Below are positions 8,105 through 25,984 of a DNA stretch of 26,643 nucleotides, one piece after another (the first letter of the stretch is position 1; each line of letters opens with the position of its first letter). Position numbers and translations under genes: made by a program. The notes below the pieces were generated by a model. The model saw only the letters and a program-made list of their open reading frames with translations. It had not been told where the DNA came from and did not search any database. Source of the DNA: a virus; the IMG/VR virus record IMGVR_UViG_3300035162_003120, positions 1 to 26,643 of that record; one strand, 5' to 3'.

Positions 8105-11100
8105 ATGGCACAAGCAAGAAATACTTTTATAAAAAGTAAATTAAATAAAGATTTAGACGCTAGACTAATGCCTCAAGGCGAGTATAGAGATGCCGTAAAC
8201 GTTCAAGTAAGCAGATCTGAGGGAGACTCCGTAGGTTCTTTAGAAAATGTTTTAGGTAATTTTTCTGTGCTTGATATTGATGCTGAAGTAGGAGCAGGAT
8301 TAGTGTGCATAGGGCAACAAGTTGATGAGTCTAGTGGGTTTGTGTATTTGTTTTTAACGGACAATTTTCAATCACTTAATTATCAAAAACTTGCTAAAAA
8401 TTTTATAGTACAATTTGATACAAATAATTCAAGTGGTGGATCGGATGCTGTAAAAATATTAGTACAAGGAGCATGGTTAAATTTTTCAACAGATTATAGA
8501 ATATACGCATCAAATATATTAGAAGACTTTTTATTTTGGACAGATAATTATAACCAACCTAGAAAAATAAATATAGGATTTGCTGAAGACAACGGAGTGT
8601 ATTACACAACGGAAGATCAAATAAGTGTAGCTAAATTTAATCCATATGAAAGTATAGAGTTTTGGCAACCTAGTCCATTAGGAGGTACTGGTAAGTACGA
8701 AACAACTATGAAAGATGTTACCAGTAAGTTTTTGCCTAACGGAGGTGAAGCATTTGCTGGTTTAGCGACTAGCGCGGGAGCGTCTTCAATAACGGTAATA
8801 GGGGCTGTTGGTCAAATAGCGGCTTCGCCTGGAGTTGGTCCAGGTCCAACAATAAGCGGAGATATATACGGCGCAGCTACAATAGGTGTAGTTGATCCCG
8901 TCACTAATGCTATTACTGTTATAGCTGGAGCCACAATTAGCAAGCTTGTTTATTTCTCCACATTTCCTTTTCCTGGCCCTAATCCACCTGCAGGCACAAC
9001 TGCGTGGACTGTTACAATAACAGGCGGGACTTTTCCGGCTATAGCGTTTGATCAGCAAATAATTTTTAATCCAAACCCTTATTATAATGAAAACTTTGCA
9101 GGGGATCCTGCATACCTAGAGGATAAGTTTGTTAGATTTAGCTACAGATATAGATTTGATGATAATGAATATTCTATAATGGCACCATTTACACAGCCTG
9201 CATTTATACCTAAGCAAGATGGATATTTTACTTATAATAAAGATACCGCTTTTGGGCTGCAGTTAGAAGACGATCAAACAGCTGCGTACAGAAGTACTAT
9301 AGTTTCATTTATGGAAAACAAAGTAGACGATATAGGATTAAGAATACCATTACCTTTTTCTAAATCGACTATAAGTAGTGCTTTAAAAATACAAGAATTA
9401 GAAATACTTTATAAAGAGTCTGATGGTTTGGCTGTAAAGGTTATAGATACAATACCAATAGCTAAATTAACAGAAAACCCTTCCGTTGATCCAAACACTT
9501 TTGTATATAATTATATATCTAAAAAGCCTGTAAAAACTTTACCAAGTGATGTAATTACTAGAGTCTTTGATAAAGTGCCTGTTCGTGCTTTTTCCCAAGA
9601 AATTGCTAGCAATAGAATTGTATATGGTAATTTTCAAAACAAGCACACTCCACCTGCTGCATTAGATTACAATGTAGGTGTTAGTCAAAAAAGTGTTTTT
9701 AATTTACAAAACGGAAGTTGCAAAGTAACAACCGCAGGTACCTATGCTGCTGGCTCGGCTATAGCCGTAAACACTCCAGCGGGAATTATTAATGTTGGAA
9801 GTTTGGTTTTTGGTACTGGTGTTCCTGCTTTAACTCAAATAACGGAAACAACAGGAGCTACTGTTTCAAGTATTAAATTAAACCTTCCTATAACTGTGGG
9901 AACTAATGAGGTATTAACTATAGAAGCTTTTAGCGATGACACAGAAGCAGTTTCAATAGTAGAGTACCCAAATAGCACTGTAAAACAAAATAGAACATAT
10001 CAAGTAGGCGTGGTATTGTCAGACAGATACGGCAGAACTTCTTCTGTAATTCTTTCAAACAATGAAAACTCAATAACCAGTGAAAGCAACGTGTTCCAAG
10101 GAGACACAATATATTCTCCCTATTTAGGAAGTAATGTTGATCAAAACAGTTTTCCTGGTAATTCTTTAAAAGTACTATTTAATTCTACAATATCTTCATC
10201 TAAAAATGCAAGCTTAGGCACTCCGGGTATATACAGCGGTGAAACCAACTCTAGTTATAATCCTCTTGGATGGTATTCATATAAAATTGTTGTAAAACAA
10301 ACAGAACAAGAATACTACAACGTTTATTTGCCTGGCATTATGGCAGCGTATCCTCAAGACGTTACTTTAGAAATAAATAAAACGTCTCATGTTGTTTTAA
10401 TAAATGATAATATAAATAAAGTACCCAGAGATTTATCTGAAGTAGGACCTGATCAAAGACAGTTTAGAAGTTCTGTTCAATTATTTGGTAGAGTTGAAAA
10501 TACAAACTTAACGGTTCCAACTAACATTATATCAGGTACATCTAACTTAGGAGAACCTGCTTTAATGAACGATCAATATTTTACAGGCAGACAATCACAC
10601 ACTGTCTCTACAATATCAACTCTTCAAGATTTATTTGATTACAATCCCAGCGCTGTACCAAGCCCTAATTATTTTCCTCAGTTTTATTTGCTAGATTCTA
10701 ATCCGTTAGTTGGCAGAATAAGCACTAATAACAAAATTGGACAAGTATCTACTTTAAATTACTCTCCAGGTGAAGCACAGATTTATACAGCTGGAACTAA
10801 TCAGCAATATAATTTTGGAGATGATATACCATTAAAAAATATTTCAGGAAATATAGAACCTAATTGGATAGTTACGGGAATTGGAATACCAGATGGCACT
10901 TATGTTGCGTCGTTTACGCCAGCCGCCGGAACTAATCAGCCAAAAATTACATTAAATAATAGTGTAGTTTTATCACAAAATGATGTATTGTATTTTGCTC
11001 CAGGGTTAGCTTTATCAAATACCGATCGCATATTAACAACACCGGGAATACAATATTTAGCTGTGTACGAAACAGAACCTGTAGAAAGTTTATTAGATAT

Positions 11101-12367
11101 ATTTTGGGAAACAGCTAGTACTGGTATAATAAGTGATTTAAACAATTTAATTTTAAACTCTAGTGATGCTGCTGGAGGTATAGGTTTATTTACATCTGAT
11201 TGGGATGAAGCAATAACTACAACAGATAATATATTTACGCAACCTGTATTTTTAGTAGATGCTTTTGGGACTAATTTACCTGTGTATGTTCCTGAAGCGC
11301 CACCAGCCCCTGCGACAGCTGGCGTATCTAATATAGCACTTGGAGATGTATTAAATTTAAATGGCATTAATGTTCAAGCAGTTAATCCTTATTTTGAATT
11401 AACATACAATGCAAATGGAAGCTTTGTAATAAAACCCACCGCTAGTTATTATGCTGCAATATTTTTTAGCAATGCTCCCGGCAACGAAAGACTATTTAAT
11501 TTTGAAATTATAGGCACAACAACTGACGTAAATGCAGTAGAATCTACTAGTACATTTTCAATTGGACCTTTAGGACCTTCAAACATAGCTCCTGTAACAA
11601 CTCAGCGTAAAGTTAAAGGAGTCGTTGTTCCAGCAATACCAACAACAATTGATGCTAATAGAACTCAAGTTACTGCACCTATTGTTGAGATATTTGCTCA
11701 CAATGGAGCAGGCGATTTAGGGAACAGAACACAAGATTTTACAATTGATTTGTTTAGTATAATAGATTTAAACGCTCCTGGCGGGAGTCAAAATGTTGAA
11801 AATTCTGGGTTTTTTCAATTAGATGTTTCTGTAGACTCAGCTACTAATACAAAAACAGGTGCTTTAAAGATATTGCCAAATCCAAATATACCAGCAAGCC
11901 AGTTTCAATTTGTTATAACAGCACAAGATGCAGGAGGATCGGGACAACAGCAAACATATACTTCTATAATAGATTTGACTATAACGCCTGATGAGGCTAA
12001 ATCTGGAGAAATAGATTGTCTGGATCAAGGTGGAATGGGTCAAATAAACTCTTATCCTTTTGTGTATTTTGAAGTATCAGGTGCAGCAGTTGGGCAAAAT
12101 GGATTTTATGTGTTTCCTACAACCAGCATAAACAATTTAATAAGCTCAGGAAATGTAGTAACAATTGATTATACAAATGCGGTTACAAGCACGGGGGGTT
12201 TTTGCCCTAATGATGTAACAATACCTTTCTTTAGCACAAACTTAAATACGGCATATGGTTTATACGCAAACGTAGGACAACCTTGTAATGAGTGCGGTCA
12301 AGCATTTCAAACACCGGTTACTGCAACAGATATTGATATATCCGGATATACCTTTGAAATAGTATAA
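8105..12367 (+). CDS. Tail nozzle/stabilisation protein, N-terminal part, with inserted beta modules
   Basis: This 1420-residue protein opens with a signature I recognise from nozzle or stabilisation proteins of short-tailed phages: KSKLNKDLDARLMPQGEYRD (residues 10-29), followed by propeller-like strands, including LFLTDNF and FLFWTDNYNQPRKINIGFAE. The propeller is interrupted by Gly/Thr/Val-rich beta modules at about residues 213-317, 539-609 and 890-964; the latter two look homologous. Residues about 1050-1300 resemble Ig- or cadherin-like tandem beta domains, including PVYVPEAPPAPATAG and FQFVITAQDAGGSGQQQTYT. The last 116 residues hold four of the protein's six cysteines (C1305, C1367, C1394, C1397; the last two as CxxC). 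The expected C-terminal propeller half is not here but in the next gene. It probably forms the tail tip, with the added modules projecting outward and possibly binding the host. Confidence 0.7.
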   Translation: MAQARNTFIKSKLNKDLDARLMPQGEYRDAVNVQVSRSEGDSVGSLENVLGNFSVLDIDAEVGAGLVCIGQQVDESSGFVYLFLTDNFQSLNYQKLAKNFIVQFDTNNSSGGSDAVKILVQGAWLNFSTDYRIYASNILEDFLFWTDNYNQPRKINIGFAEDNGVYYTTEDQISVAKFNPYESIEFWQPSPLGGTGKYETTMKDVTSKFLPNGGEAFAGLATSAGASSITVIGAVGQIAASPGVGPGPTISGDIYGAATIGVVDPVTNAITVIAGATISKLVYFSTFPFPGPNPPAGTTAWTVTITGGTFPAIAFDQQIIFNPNPYYNENFAGDPAYLEDKFVRFSYRYRFDDNEYSIMAPFTQPAFIPKQDGYFTYNKDTAFGLQLEDDQTAAYRSTIVSFMENKVDDIGLRIPLPFSKSTISSALKIQELEILYKESDGLAVKVIDTIPIAKLTENPSVDPNTFVYNYISKKPVKTLPSDVITRVFDKVPVRAFSQEIASNRIVYGNFQNKHTPPAALDYNVGVSQKSVFNLQNGSCKVTTAGTYAAGSAIAVNTPAGIINVGSLVFGTGVPALTQITETTGATVSSIKLNLPITVGTNEVLTIEAFSDDTEAVSIVEYPNSTVKQNRTYQVGVVLSDRYGRTSSVILSNNENSITSESNVFQGDTIYSPYLGSNVDQNSFPGNSLKVLFNSTISSSKNASLGTPGIYSGETNSSYNPLGWYSYKIVVKQTEQEYYNVYLPGIMAAYPQDVTLEINKTSHVVLINDNINKVPRDLSEVGPDQRQFRSSVQLFGRVENTNLTVPTNIISGTSNLGEPALMNDQYFTGRQSHTVSTISTLQDLFDYNPSAVPSPNYFPQFYLLDSNPLVGRISTNNKIGQVSTLNYSPGEAQIYTAGTNQQYNFGDDIPLKNISGNIEPNWIVTGIGIPDGTYVASFTPAAGTNQPKITLNNSVVLSQNDVLYFAPGLALSNTDRILTTPGIQYLAVYETEPVESLLDIFWETASTGIISDLNNLILNSSDAAGGIGLFTSDWDEAITTTDNIFTQPVFLVDAFGTNLPVYVPEAPPAPATAGVSNIALGDVLNLNGINVQAVNPYFELTYNANGSFVIKPTASYYAAIFFSNAPGNERLFNFEIIGTTTDVNAVESTSTFSIGPLGPSNIAPVTTQRKVKGVVVPAIPTTIDANRTQVTAPIVEIFAHNGAGDLGNRTQDFTIDLFSIIDLNAPGGSQNVENSGFFQLDVSVDSATNTKTGALKILPNPNIPASQFQFVITAQDAGGSGQQQTYTSIIDLTITPDEAKSGEIDCLDQGGMGQINSYPFVYFEVSGAAVGQNGFYVFPTTSINNLISSGNVVTIDYTNAVTSTGGFCPNDVTIPFFSTNLNTAYGLYANVGQPCNECGQAFQTPVTATDIDISGYTFEIV
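9719..9931 (+). repeat. Beta-rich inserted module, copy 1 (residues 539-609 of the nozzle protein)
   Basis: This coding segment begins TTAGTYAAGSAIAV, continues with a Gly-x-Gly-Val/Ile-Pro turn (LVFGTGVPALTQI) and ends in a strand pair (LPITVGTNEVLTIEAF). The same order appears in residues 890-964. Modules of the form 'xxGxGIPxGTxV...ITLxxxVxLxxxDxLxF' occur in many phage and bacterial surface proteins, which suggests a mobile, repeatedly inserted decoration domain. Confidence 0.5.
10772..10996 (+). repeat. Beta-rich inserted module, copy 2 (residues 890-964 of the nozzle protein)
   Basis: This is the second copy of the module. It starts IYTAGTNQQYNFGDDIPL, has the turn VTGIGIPDGTYVASF and ends ITLNNSVVLSQNDVLYF. 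Alignment by eye with copy 1 pairs TAGT, G-x-G-[VI]-P, the T-x-[IV] strand and the final [ND]-[ED]-V-L-[TY]-[IF]. A third, weaker relative may lie at residues 213-317. Confidence 0.5.
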
Positions 12368-12401: not shown

Positions 12402-13910
12402 ATGGGTGCAGTAATCGAAGTAAAATATTTTAACTCTTTTGTTTTAAAGAAGGTTGGTGTGGCTGGTAACAATATAATATGGGATGGATCACAAGGTATA
12501 CCTAGCAATGTAGCTGGCGGATATCCTGTGGTTGCACAAACTCCTGCAGATTTTAATATTAACGATTGGGCTATTGAAGAGGCGCGAATAAGAGGCGGTT
12601 ACAATAACACATCTACTGACTACGGGGCTAAAGCATATTTAGTAGAAGAAGAGCCAAATGCAGTAACAAGATTTAATACATTAATATACTCTGGAATATT
12701 TAATTCTAGAACCGGTATAAATAATACTAATGTGTTTTCTACAGCAGATGACATAACTAAAAGTGCTGATCCAGCCAATGGTTCAATACAAAAATTATAT
12801 GCTGAAGATACTAATTTAGTTATATTTCAAGAAAGAAAAGTAAGCAGAGCATTAATAGACAAAGATGCTATTTATGCGGCAGAAGGAGGTGGAAGTGTAA
12901 CTTCAAGCAATCTAACCATAGGGGTTATTCAGCCTTACGCTGGAAAGTATGGTATAAGTAAAAACCCGGAAAGCTTTGCTATTTATGGGTATCATAAATA
13001 TTTTGCAGACAAAGAAAATAATGCAATTCTAAGGCTAAGTAGGTCAGGTATTGATGAAATTTCTTCCATTGGCATGAAAGATTTTTTTAGAGATAACCTA
13101 AATAGTTTAAATACAAATGCAGGAACAGGCTCTGTAATTGGGGCTTATGATATATATAGCAATCAGTATGTTACTTCTTTACAACAATATACGGCACCTT
13201 TAACAATACCTACAACATTTAATACATTGTCATTTGATGAATCTACGCGAGGATGGACTAGTAGATATTCTTATGCCCCCCAAGTAATGTTTAGCTTAGG
13301 AGCAAACTTTTATTCAGTACAAGAAGGACCGCAGGGCGCATTAGAACTATGGAAGCATAATGATACTAGATCAAACAGAGCGAATTTTTATGGTGTAGAC
13401 GGTGGTGCAAATGTAACATTTATATTAAACCCAGAACCGGTTAGATCAAAAACATTTAAAACAATAGGCTATGAAGGAAGTAATGGGTGGAGATTGTTAT
13501 CTTTACAATCAGACGATACAGGTAAAGACTTAAATCCTTCTAATGCATCTTTTGAATTATATTTTGATCAAACAAGTGGTATATTAAGTTATTACGATGG
13601 CGAGTATGTATTTAACCCAGCTGATGGAGCTGTAGTAACAAGGGCTAATTATCAAGCAACATTAGGAACTACAGAGCCTCCTTTGCCTAGATATTACGCA
13701 GGATTTAACAGAAAAGAAAACAAATATGTATCTAATTTAGTTAATTTTAGCGCTCCAGCTCCGGGTGAAATAATTTTTGGACAAAACATATCTGGTATAA
13801 AAGGATATTTTGTTACCGGTACATTAGCTACAGACTCCACTACAAATCCTGGCGGTGAAAAACAACTGTTTTCAATAGAAAGCGCATATACAATGAATAA
13901 TGGATATTAA
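12402..13910 (+). CDS. Tail nozzle/stabilisation protein, C-terminal part as a separate gene
   Basis: This 502-residue protein contains GSIQKLYAEDTNLVIFQERK (from about residue 127), then GKYGISKNPESFAIYGYHKY, FADKENNAILRLSRSGIDEI and a motif ending MKDFFRDNL. I recognise this block from the C-terminal half of large nozzle or stabilisation proteins in marine phages, where I remember it continuing from the KxNKDLDARL type N-terminus in one chain. Here the two halves are separate genes in different reading frames, 34 bases apart. The later part is beta-rich and ends with typical propeller or interface strands. It has no cysteine and no membrane segment. The two products probably assemble together as the tail tip. 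The start at 12402 is fixed by an in-frame TAA at 12396, six bases upstream. An independent tail-fibre-like protein is the alternative. Confidence 0.65.
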   Translation: MGAVIEVKYFNSFVLKKVGVAGNNIIWDGSQGIPSNVAGGYPVVAQTPADFNINDWAIEEARIRGGYNNTSTDYGAKAYLVEEEPNAVTRFNTLIYSGIFNSRTGINNTNVFSTADDITKSADPANGSIQKLYAEDTNLVIFQERKVSRALIDKDAIYAAEGGGSVTSSNLTIGVIQPYAGKYGISKNPESFAIYGYHKYFADKENNAILRLSRSGIDEISSIGMKDFFRDNLNSLNTNAGTGSVIGAYDIYSNQYVTSLQQYTAPLTIPTTFNTLSFDESTRGWTSRYSYAPQVMFSLGANFYSVQEGPQGALELWKHNDTRSNRANFYGVDGGANVTFILNPEPVRSKTFKTIGYEGSNGWRLLSLQSDDTGKDLNPSNASFELYFDQTSGILSYYDGEYVFNPADGAVVTRANYQATLGTTEPPLPRYYAGFNRKENKYVSNLVNFSAPAPGEIIFGQNISGIKGYFVTGTLATDSTTNPGGEKQLFSIESAYTMNNGY

Positions 13911-13922
13911 AAATACAAAAAT

Positions 13923-14612
13923 ATGGTAGGAGCAATAATAGGTGGTGCCGTTTCGATAGCTGGTGGGCTCTTTGCAGCAAGTGCAGCTAAAAAAAGAGCA
14001 GCGGCAGCAGCTAAAGAAAGACGACGCCTTACAAATAAATTAAATAATTTAGAAAAAAATAGACAAGCCATAATAAACCCTTACGATGGTATTGTAGATT
14101 TAAGCGGTATGATTAGCAATCCTTTTGCTAATTTATCTGTTGCTACTGCTGCGGCTGAAATGCAAATAGAAGAAGCTGATATATCTTTAGCTAACACATT
14201 AGATACTATACGCCAAACAGGTGGTGGTGCTGGTGGAGCTACTGCATTAGCTCAAGCGGCTTTAAAGTCTAAAAAAGGTGTTAGCGCAAGTATAGAAGCT
14301 CAAGAAAAAACTAATGAAGATAAAAGAGCGGCTGGCGAGCAAACTTTACAACAACAAAAAATGGCTGAAGCGCAAAGACTTCAACAAGCAGATGTGGCTG
14401 GTGAGCAGTTTATGTTTAGTACTAGAGAAGGCAGAGAAATACAACAATTAGATAGAACGGCAGCAATGATAGGGCAGGCTCGACAAGCAGAGGCAATGGC
14501 CACTCAAGATCAAGCTAGTGCTATAGGCGGAATGGTTAGTACACTGGGTAATATTGCTGCAACACCTGGCTTGCTAGGTAATCCAACATCACCACCACCC
14601 CCACCTAATTAA
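13923..14612 (+). CDS. Putative internal virion protein, T7 gp14-like
   Basis: This 229-residue protein begins with a hydrophobic Gly/Ala segment (residues 2-21, VGAIIGGAVSIAGGLFAASA), followed at once by an Ala/Lys/Arg stretch and a long helical, Gln/Ala/Glu-rich body, predicted to be largely coiled coil. A Gly-rich hinge lies near residue 100 (GGGAGGAT), and the tail ends in a run of five prolines. A short hydrophobic N-terminus with a helical body, encoded just downstream of the nozzle and upstream of two further proteins of increasing size, mirrors T7 gp14, which is ejected and forms an outer-membrane pore. It contains no cysteine. Similarity to T7 gp14 is architectural and positional; I see no sequence identity. 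It could also be a different minor virion protein. Confidence 0.5.
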   Translation: MVGAIIGGAVSIAGGLFAASAAKKRAAAAAKERRRLTNKLNNLEKNRQAIINPYDGIVDLSGMISNPFANLSVATAAAEMQIEEADISLANTLDTIRQTGGGAGGATALAQAALKSKKGVSASIEAQEKTNEDKRAAGEQTLQQQKMAEAQRLQQADVAGEQFMFSTREGREIQQLDRTAAMIGQARQAEAMATQDQASAIGGMVSTLGNIAATPGLLGNPTSPPPPPN

Positions 14613-14620
14613 TAATAAAA

Positions 14621-15721
14621 ATGGAAAACAACAATATACTTCAAAACTTATTTTTAAAGCAATTTAACGAAAGTAATGCCATTGCTTACAATCAAGCTTT
14701 TGTAGCTGGTGCTAGTGACTATAGCTTTCAGCTATTAGACAATGCTTACAGACTAGCTGGACAATATTATGCTAGCTTAAAAATAGCTATAGAATCTAAT
14801 AAGTGTCAATCTGAGCATTGTGCTTTAGAATTAAAACAATTAAAACAATTAGAAGAGGCTCCTCAGGCTTCTTTAGATTTTTTATCATCTATAATAAATG
14901 AGTTTAGTACAACGGAAGAGTCAAGCTTTGATCCTAATAATGACTATAGATATGCCGCTGCTAATAGCGTAATGACAGGTAAGCCTGGGTTTTCTAAAAC
15001 AGACGGATACGGTGTTTATTTAGATTTGCTACAAGATGGATCTCAGCAAATAGCTTTTTATGGACCTGCTTTTGTAATTCCGTTAATTATAAATAATTCT
15101 TCATTAAACGCTTTGCTAGATTCAGATACATCTCTTGTAGTTTCTACACCAGATATAGGTGCTGAAATGTTATTGCTTTTACCTGAAACAGGTTTGTTTG
15201 CGCAAGAAATGATTAATGAAAATAAAGAATTAAAAGCTACCGCTAAAATAAGCGAAGAGTTTGTAATGAAAAATGCAGACGGAAGTTTTGATTATGAAAT
15301 TGTAGACTTAGGAAACAATCAAGGTAAAAACGTTCTTAAGTATGACATGGATAAAATTGAACAAAAGGTTACTCCTTTTATAAACGCTGAAGTAGCTGGT
15401 TTAATGAGCTCTGAGCAAGACGTAATTGCAGCGTGGAACGTTTATATATCTAAAGATACAAGTGCTAGTGAGGACGCCCAAATGGCTCAGGATGCTAATG
15501 CGGGCGACTCAAGCTGGAGTTACGAATTAGATTTACCATTGCAACAAGAAAAGAAAGTTTTATTTGAAACAAAATACAAAGAATACTTTATGAATAATTA
15601 TCTAAAACAATTTACTACTGAACAATTACCAACAGTTAAAGAAGATGCTGCGGTTTTTAATTTAGCAGAAGCTAAGCAAGCAGAAGCTCAAAAGTTTTTA
15701 AAAGATAATAATTTAAATTAA
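14621..15721 (+). CDS. Putative internal virion protein, T7 gp15-like by position
   Basis: This 366-residue protein is mostly helical and acidic with no family I recognise. Residues 1-100 are helical, with the only two cysteines close together (C62 and C67, in the segment KCQSEHC). Residues about 140-175 form a short strand-rich part (GVYLDLLQDGSQQIAFYGPA). The remainder is Glu/Lys/Asp-rich helix. It has no signal peptide, membrane segment or enzyme motif. It sits between the gp14-like gene and the giant ejection-type gene, with 8- and 5-base gaps, so all three are almost certainly cotranscribed. By analogy with T7 gp15 it would help form the periplasmic part of an ejection conduit. That role comes from gene order only; an accessory of the giant protein is equally possible. 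Confidence 0.4.
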   Translation: MENNNILQNLFLKQFNESNAIAYNQAFVAGASDYSFQLLDNAYRLAGQYYASLKIAIESNKCQSEHCALELKQLKQLEEAPQASLDFLSSIINEFSTTEESSFDPNNDYRYAAANSVMTGKPGFSKTDGYGVYLDLLQDGSQQIAFYGPAFVIPLIINNSSLNALLDSDTSLVVSTPDIGAEMLLLLPETGLFAQEMINENKELKATAKISEEFVMKNADGSFDYEIVDLGNNQGKNVLKYDMDKIEQKVTPFINAEVAGLMSSEQDVIAAWNVYISKDTSASEDAQMAQDANAGDSSWSYELDLPLQQEKKVLFETKYKEYFMNNYLKQFTTEQLPTVKEDAAVFNLAEAKQAEAQKFLKDNNLN

Positions 15722-15726: not shown

Positions 15727-18700
15727 ATGAACGAATTAGAAAAATTTGCAGCATCAATACCTTCTCCAGTAAGCAGAGAAAAAAGAATTCAATTAATTAA
15801 AGATTGGAAAATAAAAAACAACTGGGACAAAAAAGTTTCTGAAGTCTCACAGAAAGCCTGGGAAGGAGAATCTACAGAAATAGTAAAGATAGACCCTGTT
15901 GTGGAGAAGACTGCACCTGCACCAGGGAAAACAAAAAGCACGTCAAAACCTTTAAATTCTGGGGATTCGAAATCGGATGGATCTTCAGAAAAGCCTAATC
16001 AAGGAAATATTGGTTATGCTCTTAGTTGGAATGATAGAATTTACACAGCAGAAGAAATTGAAAAAAATCTTTTAGGAACAAAAAACTGGAAAGAAGGATC
16101 GGTTAGACTTAACAAAAAAGGAGAAAAAGATGTTTTTGGAATTCCATCTACGATGGATCAATACATAAACTATATTAATGATCATACTAATAATGAAATA
16201 ACAACTCGCCCTTTAACAGTTGAAGAGCAATATGAATCTATTTCAAACGAAAGACCTAGCGCGTTTGTTACAGAAATTGATGAAATTGAAATTGGAGGCG
16301 TAAACTCCTACGATGCAAACATTAATGATGATATGGGCATTAATCTTTGGAGGCCTGGCAGCGAAGAAGCAAATGAGGCATTGCAAAGTGTTTATCCCGA
16401 GTCAGAAACTTTATATAATGAAATACAAAAAGGGAATGCTAGCGAAGTAACTACTTCATTAATAGGAACTGAAAATCCTTACACTGACGTCAATGCATAC
16501 GCTAGAGGTCAAATCGACTTAGACCAAAATAATTTATGGACTAATCGTAACCTTGTTGGTAGACAACTTACAGGAGCTTTTGGAAATTACCAAGGGGTTC
16601 CTTTAAGTAATTTAGATGGTAATGAAACTGCTTTTGATGTAAAAGAAAGAGTAAGAACTCAGCAGCAAATTAAAAATGAAATAGATCGTTTAAAAATAGA
16701 AATTGGCAATGCTAATGATGAGGCTGTTATTTCTGAATTAAACAGTAGGCTATCCGTGCTAGAAAGAGAGCTAGTCGAGGAGTTTGGCAGTTTAACTACA
16801 GTTAATGTACCGCATGCACTTGAATATAGAATTAAAAGAGAAGGTCAAAAAGCTAAAGAAAAATTTTTAGAAGAAGAAAAACTTAAACAAAAATCAACAA
16901 CTTCTAAGTCGGATATAAAAGATCCAAGAAAAGCAATATTAAATAGGGTTTTAGAACAAGGCCTTAATCATATAGGTACTGTAGAGCAAGAATTGGCTGG
17001 ACTTGAAAGAGAATTAGAAACCTCAGTTATAAGTAATGAAAGACGAGATAAGGTTGAAAAGCGCATAAAAGAAATAGAAGAAGAGCGCAATTTTTTTGGC
17101 GGAGGGCGTCTTAAAAATGATTTTGGTGGGAAGCTTTACGACAAAAACACGGGTAATATGGTGGATTTTGATAAAGCCGATGTAAAAGTAATTGAAACGC
17201 AGCAAAAAGCTGAAGATTTAGCAGAAACCACAGAGCTTAATGTATTAGAAGATAACTTATTAAATAGAAATTTTGAATTAGTAGGAATTGCAGAAGATTT
17301 TTTAGAGCTTCATAATGAAAATAAATATAAATATGACGTAGGAAAAACTTTAGAAAACAAATTGTTTGGGCCTGGAAGAGAAGAAAAAGATTTGGCTCTT
17401 ATTAATTACTTAATAAAAAACGGTCAACTTCCTAAAGATATATACAACTTAAGCGGAGATTCTCCTATTGCTCAATATTTTAATGATGCATTAGATGATT
17501 ACGAAGTAATCAATAAAGCAATACTAATTAATAGAAATCCTTTAACAGCTAAGCAAAAAAATTATGTTGATGAAGCAATTGATGGTGTTGTAAATATAAT
17601 TGGTAAAAATATTACAACTAAGCAAGAAAATCAAATGCTTTTTATAGATGTTTTAAGAAGAGATGGAACGTTTGATGAAGAAGAATTAAAAGCATTTGAA
17701 ACAGCTTTAGAAGCAAATGCTGGCCAAAAAATAATGAAAGGAGTGCCTACTTTGTTTGCTTTTGGAGTTGAAATTGCATTAACTAGAAAATTATCTGGTA
17801 ATAAAATAGCAAAAGTTTTTAAATATTTAGATGATATAGCAATTAAATATTTTAAAGGCAATAAGTACATGAAAACTGCCATTAATGCTATAAGTAAAGG
17901 TTTAACAGAAGGATCTGAATTTGCGGCCGCAACTGCTTTAAAAAACGTAGTTCTTAACGAAGATGAAAGTGTTGGCGAATCGTTTGCACAAGGTGGCGCT
18001 ATGGGCTTTGGGGGTACTTTTGGTAAAGCATTTTTTGGAGCTTTAAATAAAACAATGCTTAAATCCTCTAGCTACGGAAAACTAAATTATTATTTAGACA
18101 AAAGCGAAGTATACAAAAACTTTATAGCAAGCGCTCAAAGCGCTGCGGGTGGTGCTACAGCTTATATTTCTGGAGGCGTTTTAATGGGAAATCAAAACCT
18201 GCATTATGAAGAGCTAACTACTACTTTTGTAGAAGAATGGTCTAAAATGTTTATATTAGGTAAGCTTCAAAAAGGTTTACGTGATCCAGGAGGAAGTATG
18301 AGAGCTTCTTACAGAAGAATGAGCAATGATATACTTGGCTTTTCAAACTTATCTTATAACTCTAAAAAAGGAGCAACTGCATTAAATGTAGATACAAAAA
18401 TTATATCAAACCCAACAGAAACTAGTAACGAACAAGTTGCTGCTGCTGCGCAAGCTAAAATTGATTCTATAGCAAAAGATGCAAAAGACGGTAAAATTAC
18501 TACTGAAGAATCTTTAATATTAATAAAGCAAGCTGCGCAAGCTAAAATGGCTCTTTTAAATCAAATTGGAATTAATCAAGCTAAAGCAGAAATACAAAGA
18601 GAAAGAAAAAGTGGCCAAGCTCCAACTGTAGCTGAAGAATATACAACTTTAAGTAAAATTAAAGGCGGGGAAAAACTAAACGCTAAAGACTCTCAAACAC

Positions 18701-21700
18701 TTTCTGAATTGCCTCCTGAGTTAATTTTAGAAAAACTAGGAATTGAATCTAGCACGGAAAGCTTAAGGCAAGCAAATGATATGATAAACCGAGAAAGCAC
18801 AATTCAAAATTTATTGAATGGTGGCAATGGTAAATTTGTTGTAACAGAGGCCGGATTTCAAGGTAAAATTATAGTTAAAGAAGGTCAATACAGAGTATCA
18901 AAAGATAATCCAAAGCTTAGAGAGGAAACTTACGAATTTTTAAATAAAAAATTTGCACTAAACGATTCATTAACTAAGTTAAAAAACATGAATACTTCTG
19001 GTATGTCCGTGCTAGAAAAAGAAACCTATAACGAAACTGTAAAAGAACAAGAAGCAGAACTTAGCAAATACCAAGAAGGAGGAGTTACTGAAAGTATTTT
19101 ACAAGGTAAATTACAAAAAGAAGCATTAAAAATATATGAAGCTGATGTAGCAAAATCTAAAGAATTAGCTAAAACCAATGTTAAAGGAGAAGTAGTAGAA
19201 TCTCTTACTAAACCGGAATTTCAAAAAGCATACGATGCTTCTGGCTTAAAAGCTAAAGACGTTAAAGATACCGTTGCTTTTATAGATCCAAATACTGGTA
19301 ATAGATTTATAAACAGGGAAAAAGCATTGGAAATTAAAAGTTTTAATGCTGCTACCCATGAAGATTTTCATGCAGTTACTTTAGATGTATTTAAAAATGC
19401 CGAAGGCAAGGTAACAGAAGAGGGGATAGCTATTATAGATAACATTGTAGGCTCTTTAAGCCCAAGACAACAAGAAATACTAAACAAAGAAGTAGAGTCA
19501 AGATACGATACCAAAAAGCCTAAAAACGAGTACGCTGAAGAATATCTAACGGTATTATCGGAGCTTATAAAAGACAAGGTTATTACTTTTAATAAAGGCA
19601 TTGGTGAAAAGCTGTTGGGCATGGTTCCTTTGTACAAAAAGAATGGTTTTAAAAATTTAGAAATAAACGCTAAAACAGGAGAAGGTATATTTGAAATGCT
19701 TAGAGGTTTAGCAGAAGGAAAAAAAGGCGCTGTAGAGGCGGCTGATAAATTTGCTAAAGAAGCGGCTGAAAGTAAAACTTTTGAAACAAAAACAGATACA
19801 GCATCTGAATCTAAAGCTAAAATTACAGAAGAAAACTTAAAAATAGCAAAAGAAAACTTAAAAGTTGAAGAAGAAATAATTAAAATTGGGGCTTTTAAAG
19901 TGTCTGAGTTAAAAGGTGAAAATAGAACAAGAATTGTTAAAAAGCTAACTGATTTAAACCTTGGCCTTGTTGTAAAACTAGCCGCAAAAGCAGCTAATAA
20001 TCCAGAAATAGCTCCGTTAGAAAAAGGAAAAAGAAAAACATTTGAAGATTTTAAACAAGGCTATTCTGAACAGTTAACTAAAATTATAAATAACTACGAA
20101 CCAATAGTAGTATCTGGTAAAGAAAATTTAGGTAAAAGAATTCCTTTTGGCGCTTATTTACAGCAAAGACTAAAGCTTAGATATGGTAATGTTTTAACTG
20201 ATCTTAAAAAAGGAGAAATTGAAACCACTTCTATAGACACTAAAGAAGCCAAAGAAATTAAAGACACTTCAAGTAGCTCTACTAAACAAGCTATAGAAGT
20301 AAACACAGATGTTAAACTTGTTGACAATATTAAAATTAACAAGGAACCTTTAAGTACTGAGTTTAAAGATAAAGTTAGAAAATTTGTAACTGAACAATTA
20401 GAAAGTGTAGATATTAATAGCGAACAATTTAGAAAACAAGTTTTTAAGCCGTCTAAAGCTTTTGTAGATTTTATTGTTAAAGATTTAATTGGCAGTCCAA
20501 AGAAATTTAAACAATTTATACTGGAAAATCCTACTTTTTACAAAGGATTAAACATAACTGAATTAGTTGCAATTGATGAGGGTAGGGCAGGAATGAAGCC
20601 TCCGCAGCCTAGATTGTTTACAGAATTTAACAGAAGGCTCACAAAGCAAGCCGATATTGAAAAGTTTATGATGCAAGGAAGAATTCCTTATCTTACAACT
20701 ACTCAACAAAAAAATGGTGCAGATCTTTATAATAGGCTTAAGCCGTTACAGCCAGCATTAAATCAACACTTTTTTGGCAGTATTTCTGATAGCAGTAAAA
20801 GTAATAGAAAGCGCGCTGCAGCCAGAGTCATTGCTTCTAAATTTATGGCAGAAGCAATTCCAAGCACAGAGGCTTTTAAAGCTAAAACTTCTGTAGATAA
20901 GGCTAGGATAGCAGAAAGGCTACAAGTTTCTCAAGAAGCTAAGTTTGCTAAAGCTAAAGTAATGGACAGCAAAAAGGAAATAATCATTAAAGCGGGTTAT
21001 GTTCCGGTTGAAAGAGGTAAAGTAGGCGTAGATCGAACCAAAGATTTTGTTTTAGGTGCAGCTGCAGATATATTTGGCGTAGAAGTAGTAAGAGCTCTTA
21101 TTGCTACCAATAAAGTATTAAGTACAGCGGGTAACAGAGCCTATAGCTACAACAAAGATGGAACAATTAAAAGTGGAGGCGGTGCAGTTGGGGGTGGTTA
21201 TAATTTTATTTCAAACGCTTTAACATTAGCAAACGTTTACGGCCCAGGTGGTAAAAAAGCTGACGCAAAAACAATAAAAGATACAAAAGCATTATTAGAG
21301 GCTGGTGAATTAGGAGATTTAGCTGTATTGCAAAAAGAATTAAGTGCAACAAAAAAAGAAGGAATATATAACGCTAAAGATATAGCTGCAATAAAAAGAT
21401 TTATTGCTCATAAAAACGCAAAAGGCGGAATAGAAAACAATACCAAAGATATTGCCGAAATTAATAGAGGTAAAAAATTAATGCTAGACGGCTTTAGAAA
21501 AATTTATGAAGCAGACAATAGTACTTTTCCTTTAATAGCTGAAGTTTCTTATAGTTTTAATTCAAACAAAAACCCGTTTAGAGACTTAGCCACATTAGTG
21601 GGAGGTATGGAAGGGTTAAAGAAAGGCACAAAAACATGGGAAGAGCATATGATGCAATTCGGTATGTATACAAATGAAATGCTTAAAGCTCTTAAAGGGT

Positions 21701-24700
21701 CTGCAAAAGGATGGTCTTCATTTGTAAATTGGTCAAACAAAAATTACTATCAATTAAAGCTGAGCAAAGAAGCTTCTGATTTAATAGATCAAAACTTTAA
21801 AGGTATTGAAGGCTTAGAGGATTGGAATGCTAAATCTCAATTTCATCCACTTCAAAGAGAAAGTTTTAAAATTGCTGAAAAAACTGGAGATTATTCCAAG
21901 GTAATAGATCCAATGATTCGCGCTTACAATGAATACGTTATGTTAAACCCTTTTTCTATAACAAGATTAGGTGTTACAGATGCTAAAAGATATTTAAACA
22001 ATGTAGAAATATCTAAAGCTGACCAAAAAAACTTAACTCTTCAAAATGAGGCTGCTAAATTAATCAATGAAGTAATACGGTCAGAAGCTGGCTTTTTAAA
22101 AGAGGGTGATTATAATTATGTTACTAGAAAACAAGCAGGCGAGCGATTATTGGCAAGCAAAAATTTAGCTGAAGGTCAAAAAGGTGCGGCTAAATTAGCA
22201 AATGAAATAATGACTCCTGACATTAAATATAACAAACCTATACCTGTTAAAAAAGGAATTGATGCTTTAGCTAAAACAGATAAGGCTTTAGATTATGGCA
22301 GAAAATTAAATCCAGAAATTAAAAAAGCAAGAGTATTTGATTTTGATGACACATTAGCTAGAACTAAAAGCAATGTATTATATACAATGCCTGACGGGCG
22401 TACCGGCAAATTAACAGCTACTGAATTTGCTTTAAAGGCAGGAGAAATGGAAAAACAAGGCGTTGTATTTGATTTTTCTGAATTTAGCAAAGTAATGGAC
22501 GGCAAAAAAGGACCATTGTTTGAGCTAGCTAAAATGATGAATGAAAGTCCAGGCAAAAGAGATATGTTTGTTTTAACAGCAAGACCTCAAGATGCTGCTG
22601 GTCCTATTAAAGAATTTTTAGAATCATTAGGTCTTAATATACCTATTGAAAACATAACTGGATTAGCTGATGGAACTCCTCAGGCTAAGGCTGGCTGGAT
22701 TATGGGTAAAGCAGCTAAAGGTTATAATGATTTTTATTTTGCAGATGATGCAATTAAAAACGTTAAAGCAGTTAAAAATGTTTTAGATGTTTTAGATGTT
22801 AAAGGAACAGTGCAGCAAGCTAAATTTAGCAAAGCTAAAACTTATGATACTATTGTAAATGAAATGATAAAAGAGTCTGCTGGCATAGAAGTTTATAAAA
22901 AATATTCTGCAGCTAGAGCTAAAACAGTTGGTGCAAGTAAGGGTAGATTTAATTTCTTTATACCGGCAAGCGCAGAAGATTTTACAGGGTTATTATATAA
23001 AATGTTAGGTAAAGGTAAAACTGGTGATGCTCAAATGGCATTTCTTAAAACCAATTTACTTGATACTTATGACAGAGCTGAATCAGCTGTAACGCAAGCT
23101 AAAATAGCCGCGGCAAATGACTTTAAAGCTTTAAAATCAAACTTAAAAACTTTGCCCAGTAGTTTAAGCAAGCCTACAGGTATTGGTGGATTTACATTTT
23201 CGCATGCAGTTCGTGTTGCTGCTTGGACAGCTCAAGGTATGGAAATACCAGGATTGTCTAAAAGAGACATTGCAGAATTAAACGACTTTGTAAATAACAA
23301 TGCGGAGCTTAAAGTATTTACTAACGAATTACTTAAAATTCAAAAAGGTAAACTATATCCTGAGCCAGGCAAAGAATGGCTGGGTGGTAACATTACTAGC
23401 GATATTATAAATGATATTAACAAAGTTAATAGAGCGGAATATCAACAAGAATTTAGAGAAAACGTAGATATTATATTTTCTGAAGCTAACATGAACAAAA
23501 TGGAAGCTGCTTACGGAACTAGATGGCGCGAAGCTATGGAAGATTCTTTAAGAAGAATGAAGTCGGGTAGTAATAGACCTCCAGGAGGCAATAGAATTAC
23601 AGATGGTATACTTGATTGGTTAAATAACTCTGTAGGTGCTGTAATGTTCTTAAACACACGTTCAGCACTCTTACAGACTATATCTGCGGTAAACTTTGTA
23701 AACTGGGGTGATAATAATATAGCTAAAGCTGGTTTAGCATTTGCTAACCAAAAGCAGTATTGGAAAGATTATATGACTCTTATGAATTCTGATTATTTAG
23801 TTGAGCGTAGAAACGGACTTAAGATAAATGTAAGTGAATCAGAAATTGCTGATGCAGTAAGAGATTCGGGTAATAAGCCTAAAGCAGCTATAGCATTTTT
23901 ACTTAGCAAAGGATTTGTTATGACAAGATTTGCAGATAGTTTTGCAATTGCTTCAGGTGGTGCTACTTTTTATAGAAACAGAGTTAAATCTTTGTTAGGC
24001 AAAGGCATGGAACAAAAAGCTGCAGAAGCACAAGCTTTTGAAGATTTTAGAGCTATTGCAGAGGAAAGTCAGCAATCTAGTAATCCAAACAGAATTAGTG
24101 CACAGCAAGCATCAGCCGCAGGTCGTGTTGTACTAGCTTGGGCAAACACGCCAATGCAATATGCTCGTATACAAAAAAGAGCAGGTCAAGATCTTATAAA
24201 TGGTCGTGGTGACTGGAAAACAAATGTATCTAAAATAGTTTATTACGGAGCTATACAAAATTTAATATTTAATTCTTTACAACAAGCAGTGTTTGCTTTA
24301 GCCTTCGGAGAAGATGATGACGAAGAACAGCAAAGCGCTAAGAAAAATGAAAAAATATCTAGAGTAGCAAATGGTATGATTGATTCTCAGCTTAAAGGAT
24401 TAGGAATAGGAGGAGCTGCAGTGGTTGCATTAAAAAGCACTTTAATGGAATTAGGTAAGCAGCATGCTAAAGACAGACCCGCTTACGAAGAAGCTGTATT
24501 TGATTTGCTAAGTTTTTCACCGCCTCTTGGGTCTAAAGTTCAAAAAATAAACGGAGGGCTTAGAAGCTTTAGCTGGAACATGAAAGATATCCAAGAAAAA
24601 GGTTTTAGTTTAGACAATCCTTCTTATTTAGCGGGAGCGCAAATAACGACTGGACTTACTAATGTTCCGCTTGATAGAGTTGTTAAAAAAATTAATAGTA

Positions 24701-25248
24701 TGCGAGGACTTGTTAATGAACAATCTTCTCTTTGGCAAAAAGTTGCTTTAGGTCTTGGTTGGTCTACTTGGGATGTAGGTCTTGGTTATTACGGAGGATT
24801 TGACGCAGCAAAAGTTTTAACACCTAAAGAGGAAAGAGTTAAAGAAATTAACGATATGAAAAAGTTAACTAAAACACAAGAGCAAGTTGATATGCTGCTT
24901 GATTTAGGGTTAACTAAAAAAGAAATAAAAGCATTAGGTAAAGAGCAATCCAGAGTTGAAAAAATTATAGAGCTGCAAAATGCAGAGGCTAAACCTAAAG
25001 AAGAAGCTAAGGTTAAAGAAGAAATAAAAGAAGAAACAAAACCAACACTAGAAGTAAAAGCAAAACCTAAAACCGAAAGCGTCGAAAGAAGGCTTAGAAG
25101 ACAATTTGATTCTATTAAAGATGAAAACAAACCTGATCAAGTAAAAACATTACTTAAGTTTGGGTTAACCAAAAAAGAAATAAGAGAATTACAATACGAA
25201 AAAAATAGAGTAAACAAAATATTAGAATTAATGGAAAAAAATAAATAA
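15727..25248 (+). CDS. Giant polyvalent, probably ejected virion protein with metallopeptidase and HAD phosphatase domains
   Basis: This 3173-residue protein occupies the T7 gp16 position. Residues about 1-600 are charged, with coiled coils near 309-350 and 420-460. Residues about 660-825 contain Gly/Ala-rich hydrophobic segments. A zinc metallopeptidase motif HEDFH lies at 1211-1215, with a Glu-rich helix at 1268-1272 as possible third ligand. Residues about 2195-2365 carry all HAD motifs: D2205 and D2207 (DFDDT), T2284 (LTAR), K2321 and D2340-D2341. Residues about 2480-3030 form a conserved-looking, partly hydrophobic domain (for example YYGAIQNLIFNSLQQAVFAL), resembling large-polyvalent-protein-associated domains. 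Two copies of a 31-residue motif end the protein. I read no cysteine in it. Such phage giants are packaged and delivered with the DNA; which substrates the two enzymes act on is unknown. The start at 15727 follows an A/T leader 5 bases after the previous stop. Confidence 0.75.
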   Translation: MNELEKFAASIPSPVSREKRIQLIKDWKIKNNWDKKVSEVSQKAWEGESTEIVKIDPVVEKTAPAPGKTKSTSKPLNSGDSKSDGSSEKPNQGNIGYALSWNDRIYTAEEIEKNLLGTKNWKEGSVRLNKKGEKDVFGIPSTMDQYINYINDHTNNEITTRPLTVEEQYESISNERPSAFVTEIDEIEIGGVNSYDANINDDMGINLWRPGSEEANEALQSVYPESETLYNEIQKGNASEVTTSLIGTENPYTDVNAYARGQIDLDQNNLWTNRNLVGRQLTGAFGNYQGVPLSNLDGNETAFDVKERVRTQQQIKNEIDRLKIEIGNANDEAVISELNSRLSVLERELVEEFGSLTTVNVPHALEYRIKREGQKAKEKFLEEEKLKQKSTTSKSDIKDPRKAILNRVLEQGLNHIGTVEQELAGLERELETSVISNERRDKVEKRIKEIEEERNFFGGGRLKNDFGGKLYDKNTGNMVDFDKADVKVIETQQKAEDLAETTELNVLEDNLLNRNFELVGIAEDFLELHNENKYKYDVGKTLENKLFGPGREEKDLALINYLIKNGQLPKDIYNLSGDSPIAQYFNDALDDYEVINKAILINRNPLTAKQKNYVDEAIDGVVNIIGKNITTKQENQMLFIDVLRRDGTFDEEELKAFETALEANAGQKIMKGVPTLFAFGVEIALTRKLSGNKIAKVFKYLDDIAIKYFKGNKYMKTAINAISKGLTEGSEFAAATALKNVVLNEDESVGESFAQGGAMGFGGTFGKAFFGALNKTMLKSSSYGKLNYYLDKSEVYKNFIASAQSAAGGATAYISGGVLMGNQNLHYEELTTTFVEEWSKMFILGKLQKGLRDPGGSMRASYRRMSNDILGFSNLSYNSKKGATALNVDTKIISNPTETSNEQVAAAAQAKIDSIAKDAKDGKITTEESLILIKQAAQAKMALLNQIGINQAKAEIQRERKSGQAPTVAEEYTTLSKIKGGEKLNAKDSQTLSELPPELILEKLGIESSTESLRQANDMINRESTIQNLLNGGNGKFVVTEAGFQGKIIVKEGQYRVSKDNPKLREETYEFLNKKFALNDSLTKLKNMNTSGMSVLEKETYNETVKEQEAELSKYQEGGVTESILQGKLQKEALKIYEADVAKSKELAKTNVKGEVVESLTKPEFQKAYDASGLKAKDVKDTVAFIDPNTGNRFINREKALEIKSFNAATHEDFHAVTLDVFKNAEGKVTEEGIAIIDNIVGSLSPRQQEILNKEVESRYDTKKPKNEYAEEYLTVLSELIKDKVITFNKGIGEKLLGMVPLYKKNGFKNLEINAKTGEGIFEMLRGLAEGKKGAVEAADKFAKEAAESKTFETKTDTASESKAKITEENLKIAKENLKVEEEIIKIGAFKVSELKGENRTRIVKKLTDLNLGLVVKLAAKAANNPEIAPLEKGKRKTFEDFKQGYSEQLTKIINNYEPIVVSGKENLGKRIPFGAYLQQRLKLRYGNVLTDLKKGEIETTSIDTKEAKEIKDTSSSSTKQAIEVNTDVKLVDNIKINKEPLSTEFKDKVRKFVTEQLESVDINSEQFRKQVFKPSKAFVDFIVKDLIGSPKKFKQFILENPTFYKGLNITELVAIDEGRAGMKPPQPRLFTEFNRRLTKQADIEKFMMQGRIPYLTTTQQKNGADLYNRLKPLQPALNQHFFGSISDSSKSNRKRAAARVIASKFMAEAIPSTEAFKAKTSVDKARIAERLQVSQEAKFAKAKVMDSKKEIIIKAGYVPVERGKVGVDRTKDFVLGAAADIFGVEVVRALIATNKVLSTAGNRAYSYNKDGTIKSGGGAVGGGYNFISNALTLANVYGPGGKKADAKTIKDTKALLEAGELGDLAVLQKELSATKKEGIYNAKDIAAIKRFIAHKNAKGGIENNTKDIAEINRGKKLMLDGFRKIYEADNSTFPLIAEVSYSFNSNKNPFRDLATLVGGMEGLKKGTKTWEEHMMQFGMYTNEMLKALKGSAKGWSSFVNWSNKNYYQLKLSKEASDLIDQNFKGIEGLEDWNAKSQFHPLQRESFKIAEKTGDYSKVIDPMIRAYNEYVMLNPFSITRLGVTDAKRYLNNVEISKADQKNLTLQNEAAKLINEVIRSEAGFLKEGDYNYVTRKQAGERLLASKNLAEGQKGAAKLANEIMTPDIKYNKPIPVKKGIDALAKTDKALDYGRKLNPEIKKARVFDFDDTLARTKSNVLYTMPDGRTGKLTATEFALKAGEMEKQGVVFDFSEFSKVMDGKKGPLFELAKMMNESPGKRDMFVLTARPQDAAGPIKEFLESLGLNIPIENITGLADGTPQAKAGWIMGKAAKGYNDFYFADDAIKNVKAVKNVLDVLDVKGTVQQAKFSKAKTYDTIVNEMIKESAGIEVYKKYSAARAKTVGASKGRFNFFIPASAEDFTGLLYKMLGKGKTGDAQMAFLKTNLLDTYDRAESAVTQAKIAAANDFKALKSNLKTLPSSLSKPTGIGGFTFSHAVRVAAWTAQGMEIPGLSKRDIAELNDFVNNNAELKVFTNELLKIQKGKLYPEPGKEWLGGNITSDIINDINKVNRAEYQQEFRENVDIIFSEANMNKMEAAYGTRWREAMEDSLRRMKSGSNRPPGGNRITDGILDWLNNSVGAVMFLNTRSALLQTISAVNFVNWGDNNIAKAGLAFANQKQYWKDYMTLMNSDYLVERRNGLKINVSESEIADAVRDSGNKPKAAIAFLLSKGFVMTRFADSFAIASGGATFYRNRVKSLLGKGMEQKAAEAQAFEDFRAIAEESQQSSNPNRISAQQASAAGRVVLAWANTPMQYARIQKRAGQDLINGRGDWKTNVSKIVYYGAIQNLIFNSLQQAVFALAFGEDDDEEQQSAKKNEKISRVANGMIDSQLKGLGIGGAAVVALKSTLMELGKQHAKDRPAYEEAVFDLLSFSPPLGSKVQKINGGLRSFSWNMKDIQEKGFSLDNPSYLAGAQITTGLTNVPLDRVVKKINSMRGLVNEQSSLWQKVALGLGWSTWDVGLGYYGGFDAAKVLTPKEERVKEINDMKKLTKTQEQVDMLLDLGLTKKEIKALGKEQSRVEKIIELQNAEAKPKEEAKVKEEIKEETKPTLEVKAKPKTESVERRLRRQFDSIKDENKPDQVKTLLKFGLTKKEIRELQYEKNRVNKILELMEKNK
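19294..19596 (+). other. Zinc-metallopeptidase domain inside the giant protein (residues about 1190-1290)
   Basis: The zincin motif HExxH appears as H1211-E1212-D1213-F1214-H1215 on a predicted helix (AATHEDFHAVTLDVF), preceded by a strand (TVAFIDPNTGNRFIN) as is usual for small phage peptidases of this style. About 55 residues downstream lies NEYAEEYLTVLSEL (residues 1267-1280), offering E1268, E1271 or E1272 as a gluzincin-type third zinc ligand. Such domains in polyvalent proteins could cut the protein itself, partner virion proteins or host targets after injection. The motif is seen directly; the substrate is unknown. Confidence 0.6.
22309..22821 (+). other. HAD-superfamily phosphatase domain inside the giant protein (residues about 2195-2365)
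   Basis: All four HAD motifs are present in order. Motif I is ARVFDFDDTLA, with nucleophile D2205 and acid/base D2207. Motif II is MFVLTARP, with T2284. Motif III is K2321 in the segment PQAKAGW. Motif IV is DFYFADDAIKN, with D2340 and D2341 for magnesium. The 75-residue insert between motifs I and II is helical, a C1-type cap position. The residues needed for catalysis look intact, so an active phosphatase or nucleotidase is likely; the substrate cannot be read from sequence. Confidence 0.75.
24883..24975 (+). repeat. C-terminal 31-residue motif of the giant protein, copy 1
   Basis: Residues 3053-3083 contain VDMLLDLGLTKKEIKAL, then KEQSRVEKIIEL. The same pattern recurs in residues 3138-3168 after a Lys/Glu-rich linker. 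It looks like a small helix-turn-helix or three-helix unit. Confidence 0.7.
25138..25230 (+). repeat. C-terminal 31-residue motif of the giant protein, copy 2
   Basis: Residues 3138-3168 contain VKTLLKFGLTKKEIREL, then YEKNRVNKILEL, matching copy 1 at the invariant core GLTKKEI and at L-L, R-V and K-I-[IL]-E-L. The DNA copies have diverged at many third positions, so the duplication is old and kept at protein level. Confidence 0.7.
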
Positions 25249-25678: not shown

Positions 25679-25984
25679 ATGGAATCAGGATTATATAAAA
25701 AATACATAGGATCGCCTTGTAAAGAGATTGACCCTAAAAAGACGTATCAAGATTCAGTTCAAACACTGCACAAAAAAGGCTACGAAAAATATTTTAATAA
25801 GCAAGTGCTTGGATACAGAGTTTCTGATGATGATGGACAAACGTTTAATCAAATTCCTCCTCAAAAAGATCCAAAAAAAATTAAAAGCTTGAAAGAGTAT
25901 GCTTATGCTATGGAAATTGCTAAAGGCGGATCGGTAACTAAAGACGGCAAAACAGCAGCGCAATTAGCTAGAGAAAATAAATAA
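25679..25984 (+). CDS. Hypothetical small phage protein, 101 residues
   Basis: I do not recognise this 101-residue, Lys-rich, soluble protein. It has predicted beta strands in the middle (GYRVSDDDGQTFNQIPP) and a helical Ala/Lys-rich end (YAYAMEIAKGGSVTKDGKTA). It has a single cysteine (C14). The reading frame stays open 60 bases further upstream into the preceding gene, but I choose 25679: it follows an A/T-only leader like all neighbours, avoids an overlap of 56 bases, and removes an improbable Leu/Val-rich 20-residue extension. Its stop overlaps the start of the peptidase gene (TAATG), so the two are probably coupled. Lying between holin-like and endolysin-like genes, it might be a lysis accessory, but nothing in the sequence demonstrates that. 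Confidence 0.6.
   Translation: MESGLYKKYIGSPCKEIDPKKTYQDSVQTLHKKGYEKYFNKQVLGYRVSDDDGQTFNQIPPQKDPKKIKSLKEYAYAMEIAKGGSVTKDGKTAAQLARENK

Follow-up and report, generated by a model that had tools for sequence, protein, structure and literature searches.

We found a depletion of cysteine in those viral proteins that exit the particle and either pass along a conduit through the host envelope or help to form it. This depletion recurs in unrelated viruses and is independent of amino-acid composition, and the few surviving cysteines occupy particular positions, close to chain ends or in close pairs. The window, which is the whole stretch of 26,643 nucleotides that we analyzed (positions 1 to 26,643 of the IMG/VR record IMGVR_UViG_3300035162_003120), contains a gene for a giant protein of 3173 amino acids that the initial annotation described as free of cysteine. 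This observation was confirmed and extends far beyond the window. The genes used in the comparison are as follows.

36..2423, + strand: portal protein, 795 aa, 2 Cys, used for comparison (phrog_6547, E 2.3e-138)
2455..3639, + strand: scaffold-position protein, 394 aa, 0 Cys, identified from its position only (no PHROG match)
3654..5129, + strand: capsid-position virion structural protein, 491 aa, 2 Cys, used for comparison (phrog_13704, E 3.4e-88)
8105..12367, + strand: nozzle protein, 1420 aa, 6 Cys, used for comparison (phrog_14478, E 1.3e-40)
12402..13910, + strand: tail-nozzle protein, 502 aa, 0 Cys, with 0-2 in relatives (phrog_14478 virion structural protein, E 1.8e-44)
13923..14612, + strand: gp14-like protein, 229 aa, 0 Cys (aligns with Flavobacteriia phage homologues at ~20% identity)
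14621..15721, + strand: gp15-slot protein, 366 aa, with a Cys pair, C62 and C67 (the exception; 2 Cys counted)
15727..25248, + strand: giant putative virion protein, 3173 aa, 0 Cys, encoded by the last gene of the ejection cassette (gp16 position)

A short frame just past the giant gene (25984-26337) matches endolysin/peptidase families (phrog_894, E 4e-31).

A search with the window portal protein retrieved 87 phage records, every one at <60% identity. These are Flavobacterium phages elemo, Cellulophaga phages, phages of Tenacibaculum and Maribacter, and one unassigned phage. Sequence comparison places the window as a relative of the Flavobacteriia short-tailed phages (Elemovirus, Callevirus, Pachyviridae). 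The gene order is that of these relatives: portal, scaffold position, capsid position, nozzle, and then a small, a medium and a giant protein. In phi40:1, MS/MS underlies the structural annotation of the last three genes, and the gene at the place of the giant gene is annotated “structural protein” in both phi40:1 and elemo. The best explanation for the window giant protein, reasonably probable when taken jointly with the thiol-selection mechanism set out below, is that it belongs to the ejection cassette of a short-tailed phage of Flavobacteriia, as the largest protein encoded there, and we infer that it is ejected.

The region 15727-25248 is a single open frame of 3173 codons with no stop. 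We searched its translation for in-frame TGT and TGC and counted none of either. TGT or TGC triplets number 40 and 162 in the two remaining forward frames of this DNA, so the triplets themselves are not scarce, and a single substitution would turn 551 of the 3173 codons into a cysteine codon. The remaining 13 genes of the window encode 18 cysteines in 5424 amino acids (0.33%). At this rate 10.5 cysteines are expected in the giant protein and none is seen (Poisson P 2.7e-5), and base composition by codon position predicts 35.7. The counts initially given for the neighbors were also right: six cysteines in the 1420-aa nozzle part, two each in the 491-aa capsid-position and 366-aa proteins, and none in the 229-aa gp14-like protein. 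Five other window genes (394, 274, 407, 502 and 229 aa) are also without cysteine, so that the window, which is cysteine-poor, is by itself moderate evidence. It is the relatives that make the evidence strong, as 56 out of 58 giant homologues in the family lack cysteine.

Two motifs were noted in the giant protein, HExxH at residue 1211 and a HAD-type DxDxT at residue 2205. The HExxH motif is present in 33 out of 38 family giants of >1800 aa, and residues 2195-2376, which cover the DxDxT motif, have a weak match to a polynucleotide kinase family (phrog_415, E 7e-5). A Pfam search returned no families at E up to 1, a PDB sequence search returned no chain at E below 0.7, and there was no match to a lytic transglycosylase. 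The AlphaFold model of the last 1002 residues is worthless (pLDDT 38). Large polyvalent proteins of phages carry curated enzyme or LPD domains within a single giant chain. The giant protein was considered as one of these and set aside, as it shows motifs and a weak PHROG match only, and no Pfam domains.

The family set comprises 80 metagenome loci found by the nozzle domain, many of which are close relatives and not independent. The giants of this family contain three cysteines in 102,929 aa, counted in the 58 frames mentioned above, most of which are cut by contig ends. There are no cysteines in the gp14-like family (17,624 aa; 71 out of 71 frames) or in the long gp15-like family (22,731 aa, 43 frames). 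The upstream virion proteins and nozzle of these loci contain 971 cysteines in 286,520 aa, and the nozzle relatives in the 1420-aa size class contain 624 in 115,896 aa. Among six cultured relatives, the small, medium and giant proteins of elemo, phi40:1, phi46:3, Gundel_1 and Panino are all free of cysteine, and the sole cysteine is in the giant protein of ctfjg026 (one in 3859 aa). Two further giant relatives from metagenomes, of 2733 and 3055 aa, also have none. Neither the cultured relatives nor the 80 metagenome loci thus show the normal cysteine content in homologues that would have spoken against the observation. The giants can barely be aligned across genera, with only patches at 20-30% identity, and the absence of cysteine is therefore kept where the sequence is not. 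Beside one of these two metagenome giants, a tail protein (L003:940-4791) has 67 cysteines in 1283 aa and is encoded at most five genes away from cysteine-free ejection proteins.

The initial annotation proposed comparing the proteins in the gp14, gp15 and gp16 positions with capsid, tail and enzyme genes across related phages. The gp14-like, long gp15-like and giant proteins are depleted, but the 366-aa protein in the gp15 slot is not. Both of its cysteines are invariant in 18 out of 18 aligned members, in an alignment that leaves out L178 and the 387-aa protein of L232 (not of the family). The pair is spaced CxxxxC, or CxxC in two members, and the family is otherwise cysteine-poor (window 14621-15721; L177-L251). 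It is possible that the pair is a disulphide or a metal site. A profile match to the cysteine-free long gp15-like family (143 columns, hhalign probability 94.6) suggests that the 366-aa protein is probably a remote relative of that form. Three partial frames in the short gp15-slot class have no cysteine. The model of the 366-aa protein is fair (pLDDT 79) and has no match in the PDB at E up to 0.001.

We compared the ejection proteins of nine well-known phages with other virion and non-virion proteins. T7 gp14-16 have one cysteine in 2261 aa, N4 gp50 has none in 3500 aa and P22 gp7/20/16 have none in 1309 aa. The ejection proteins of Sf6, HTVC011P and P-SSP7 have one each (in 1326, 2034 and 2282 aa, respectively), and phiEco32 gp23/24 have none in 672 aa. 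The background in the nine phages is 0.45-1.0% cysteine for other virion proteins and mostly 1.2-1.9% for non-virion proteins. The N4-type set contains three cysteines in 62,927 aa of gp50, and none in gp51 (9,627 aa) or gp52 (2,034 aa). The T7-type set contains none in 33,585 aa of gp15 and five in 60,459 aa of gp16, and its other virion proteins have 0.37-1.6%, except for the scaffold gp9 and the fixed single cysteine of gp14. Cysteine is also absent from the phiX174 pilot protein H (328 aa; F has three and G five), from the PRD1 delivery proteins (684 aa) and from the tape measures of lambda (853 aa), T4 (590 aa), P1 (1140 aa) and 80alpha (1154 aa). The initial proposal that cysteine absence marks ejected proteins is upheld for the envelope-conduit class, including unrelated short-tailed phages, phiX174 and PRD1, but does not extend to all ejected proteins. 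The ejection labels come from the literature for T7, N4, P22 and crAss001, from record annotation for phiX174, PRD1, phiEco32 gp23/24 and 80alpha gp44, and elsewhere from gene position.

Pooled over 21 phage rows, with phiX174 H, PRD1 and the four tape measures among them, the conduit class contains 12 cysteines in 47,447 aa where 270 are expected. Its rate is below that of other virion proteins in 21 out of 21 rows, with P from 0.048 to 4e-14; these values are uncorrected, take residues as independent and ignore shared ancestry, and seven rows belong to the window family, three are T7-like and two are P22-like. Scaffolds, T7 gp6.7 (one cysteine in 88 aa), gp7.3, gp13, phiEco32 gp22, PRD1 P6, P10 and P16, and several small or unassigned virion genes were placed in neither class. 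crAss001 was kept outside the pooled count, its other virion proteins being mostly beyond the stretch examined. Scanning bacterial genomes with P22 gp16 yielded no relative, the scans with lambda gpH gave near-identical sequences only and added no diversity, and the scan with crAss001 gp50 gave only two loci. Contigs identical to lambda (L406-L412, L415, L417) were present in GTDB genomes of Streptomyces, Pseudomonas, Oceanobacillus, Shewanella, Bradyrhizobium and others, and are probably sequencing spike-in or contamination.

As a control for composition, we used a Poisson model that predicts cysteine from the other 19 residues and was trained on the other proteins of the same loci. The model predicts 146 cysteines in the giants of the window family, 386 in those of the T7-type set and 545 in those of the N4-type set, whereas three, five and three are seen (observed/expected 0.021, 0.013 and 0.006). 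A flat rate would predict 369 in the family giants. Methionine is undepleted in the giants, at 1.03-1.44 times its level in other virion proteins, and tryptophan is about halved. Amino-acid composition does not explain the depletion. In N4, the non-virion RNA polymerase gp15/gp16 has 13 cysteines in 673 aa, against none in the 3500 aa of the virion polymerase. BLAST matched gp16 to T7 RNA polymerase (E 6e-7) and gave no match between gp50 and T7 RNA polymerase; we take gp50 to belong to this same polymerase family. Residues 997-2103 of gp50, the polymerase domain solved as 3q0a, are inside the cysteine-free chain. We consider it very probable that there is selection against cysteine in conduit-class proteins.

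The positions of surviving cysteines were counted in 63 conduit-class proteins, consisting of the pooled set and five crAss001 proteins, with 19 cysteines in all. Eleven of these are within 20 residues of a chain end, where 0.87 would be expected; this pattern was recognized post hoc, and homologous gp14 proteins make up four of the 11 cases, giving 8 out of 16 when they are counted once. For 49 other virion proteins, the corresponding number is 19 out of 219 (13.7 expected). Of the other eight conduit-class cysteines, six fall into three pairs with spacings of 5, 8 and 23 residues. T7-type gp14 has one cysteine in 39 out of 42 distinct frames, and wherever present it is residue 2, allowing for one over-extended start (L092:27728-28318; L127-L174). 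The gp14 cysteine is also at residue 2 in HTVC011P, P-SSP7 and epsilon15 (L096, L097, L099), and T7 gp6.7, annotated as injected, likewise starts with Met-Cys. For an outer-membrane pore protein, a cysteine at the mature N-terminus points to a lipid anchor or to some other modification of the end.

Cargo bound for the cytoplasm behaves differently from the conduit class. T4 Alt has three cysteines in 682 aa, P1 DarB/DarA/DdrB have 12 in 3889 aa, the phiKZ virion RNA polymerase gp80/178/180 has 13 in 2390 aa and 80alpha gp44 has three in 331 aa. Together these amount to 31 cysteines, against ~28 expected from the other virion proteins of the same phages, while the tape measures of the T4, P1 and 80alpha virions have none. 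The relatives of DarB are mostly near-identical, and the 60 frames listed out of 64 distinct ones all have six to nine cysteines. The non-virion polymerase of phiKZ (gp68/71/73/74) has 18 cysteines in 1887 aa and its internal proteins gp89/90/92-96 have nine in 2994 aa; phiKZ counts are without gp149, gp55 and gp123. The 2237-aa phiKZ tail protein gp181 (L102:14334-21047) has a single cysteine. Scaffolds are also cysteine-poor, with 4 seen and 70 expected from composition in the T7-type set, 0 and 23 in the N4-type set, and 0 and 9 in the window family; the Sf6 scaffold has three in 294 aa. The ejection proteins of epsilon15 retain five cysteines in 2574 aa, and the crAss001 cargo gp45/47/49/50 seven in 6944 aa.

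The explanation that we favor, as likely though well short of certain, is that thiols are selected against in viral proteins which exit the particle and either traverse an envelope conduit or form one, with disulphide formation as the presumed cause. Partly unfolded, the ejected chains would reside in or move through oxidizing places, first the free virion and later the periplasm. Two distant cysteines joined by a disulphide would close a loop and obstruct passage, or would lock or cross-link the chain before it refolds. The loss of interior cysteines would avoid this without a reductase or isomerase, and end cysteines and close pairs would be unable to form large loops. The tube of long-tailed phages may shield cytoplasmic cargo from the periplasm, which may be why Alt and DarB are exempt and the tape measure is not. 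Disulphides are described between tail-hub and ring proteins in the crAss001 virion (PMC10172136) and across the tail of Milano (PMC10811340), and the bacterial envelope is an oxidizing environment with DsbA (PMC7598926). In short-tailed phages, ejected proteins are believed to traverse a 30-45 A channel in a partly unfolded state and then to assemble in the envelope (PMC12633501; PMC8954989).

The initial annotation suggested that the absence of cysteine could come from having to unfold through a narrow portal or tail. Were threading alone responsible, any protein that unfolds through such a passage would lose its cysteines, which we regard as unlikely. Both the narrowness of the channel and unfolding have been considered for N4 (PMC12633501) and crAss001 (PMC10172136), and the proposal agrees with the missing cysteines being interior and widely spaced. 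However, Alt, DarB/DarA/DdrB and the phiKZ polymerase pass a tube with ordinary cysteine content, the cysteine-free tape measures of T4, P1 and 80alpha lie beside cysteine-bearing cargo in the same virion, and scaffolds are cysteine-poor without being ejected into a host. It is somewhat less likely still that long, helical, charged and partly disordered proteins just have few cysteines. Scaffolds are of like character, the composition of the family giants predicts fewer cysteines than the flat rate does, and the C-terminal third of the window giant is mostly helical in its very poor predicted fold. This reading is weakened by the composition-corrected counts, from a model that uses composition rather than structure, and by the folded RNA polymerase domain of N4 gp50.

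Less probable again is the idea that everything packed in the shell (scaffold, core and cargo) avoids thiols through crowding or free-virion oxidation. Depleted scaffolds and the rather low cysteine content of portal proteins would agree with it, but the internal proteins of long-tailed phages (T4 Alt, P1 Dar, phiKZ polymerase and gp89/90/92-96) keep their cysteines, and tape measures have none although they are in the tail tube, outside the capsid. Chance, codon bias or sulphur economy is very improbable and already contradicted. The window and its family are cysteine-poor overall (0.33% in the window), yet the giant gene has many TGT and TGC triplets out of frame, neighbors under the same bias keep cysteine, methionine is undepleted, and the pattern recurs across unrelated hosts and viral realms.

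We compared the window proteins to known systems. The window cassette is a contiguous small-medium-giant series downstream of the tail genes, in the same order as in its relatives. T7 gp14, gp15 and gp16 (PMC8954989) have this order after the tail genes, with the giant last, and are near cysteine-free. Unlike in T7, for which the family is phrog_805, no PHROG matched the gp14-like protein of the window, and the homologue from elemo matches phrog_13764. PHROG scans of the window cassette, which are weak for remote homology, found no T7-type internal virion family. N4 gp50 is a single chain of ~3500 aa that is packaged and ejected (PMC12633501) and, with gp51 and gp52, resembles the window giant as a huge chain with no cysteine, but the window giant lacks a polymerase match and has the HExxH and HAD-type motifs instead. 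The last structural genes of Elemovirus, Callevirus phi40:1 and Pachyviridae have the same place and cassette as the window giant and are cysteine-free, although their sequences are barely alignable.

An exclusion of cysteine from exported proteins is known in Gram-positive bacteria. Family I.3 RTX lipases lack cysteine and are exported by type I secretion (PMC3034196). Like the window giant they cross an envelope cysteine-free, but they are secreted outward by bacteria rather than ejected from a virus. The absence of cysteine in exported proteins thus has precedent, and we did not find the rule stated for phage ejection proteins in the literature searched. The ejection literature, searched by term and covered in excerpt, with subscription sources mostly outside it, contained no mention of cysteine in this role; an older remark on the cysteine-free N4 polymerase may exist.

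We propose a cysteine-excluded class of ejection proteins, defined by a composition-corrected cysteine content far below that of the remaining virion proteins of the phage, as found here. We give about even chances to the broader generalization that, across three viral realms, conduit proteins which exit the particle have lost all cysteines but those at chain ends or in close pairs, and that cysteine topology is a sequence-only predictor of ejected proteins that splits conduit proteins from cytoplasm-bound cargo. Out of 191 complete frames of at least 400 aa from 22 phage records or parts of records, 48 have no cysteine. Ejection or tape-measure positions account for 32 of these 48, and for 13 out of 13 of those of at least 1000 aa, with assignments sorted by hand and several made by gene position only. 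The field has yet to settle how giant ejection proteins become unfolded, traverse a channel of 30-45 A and fold again (PMC12633501). A cysteine rule visible in the sequence gives a direct test of unfolding and refolding through the placement of cysteines, and the absence of cysteine serves as a finder for ejection proteins that are too diverged for alignment.
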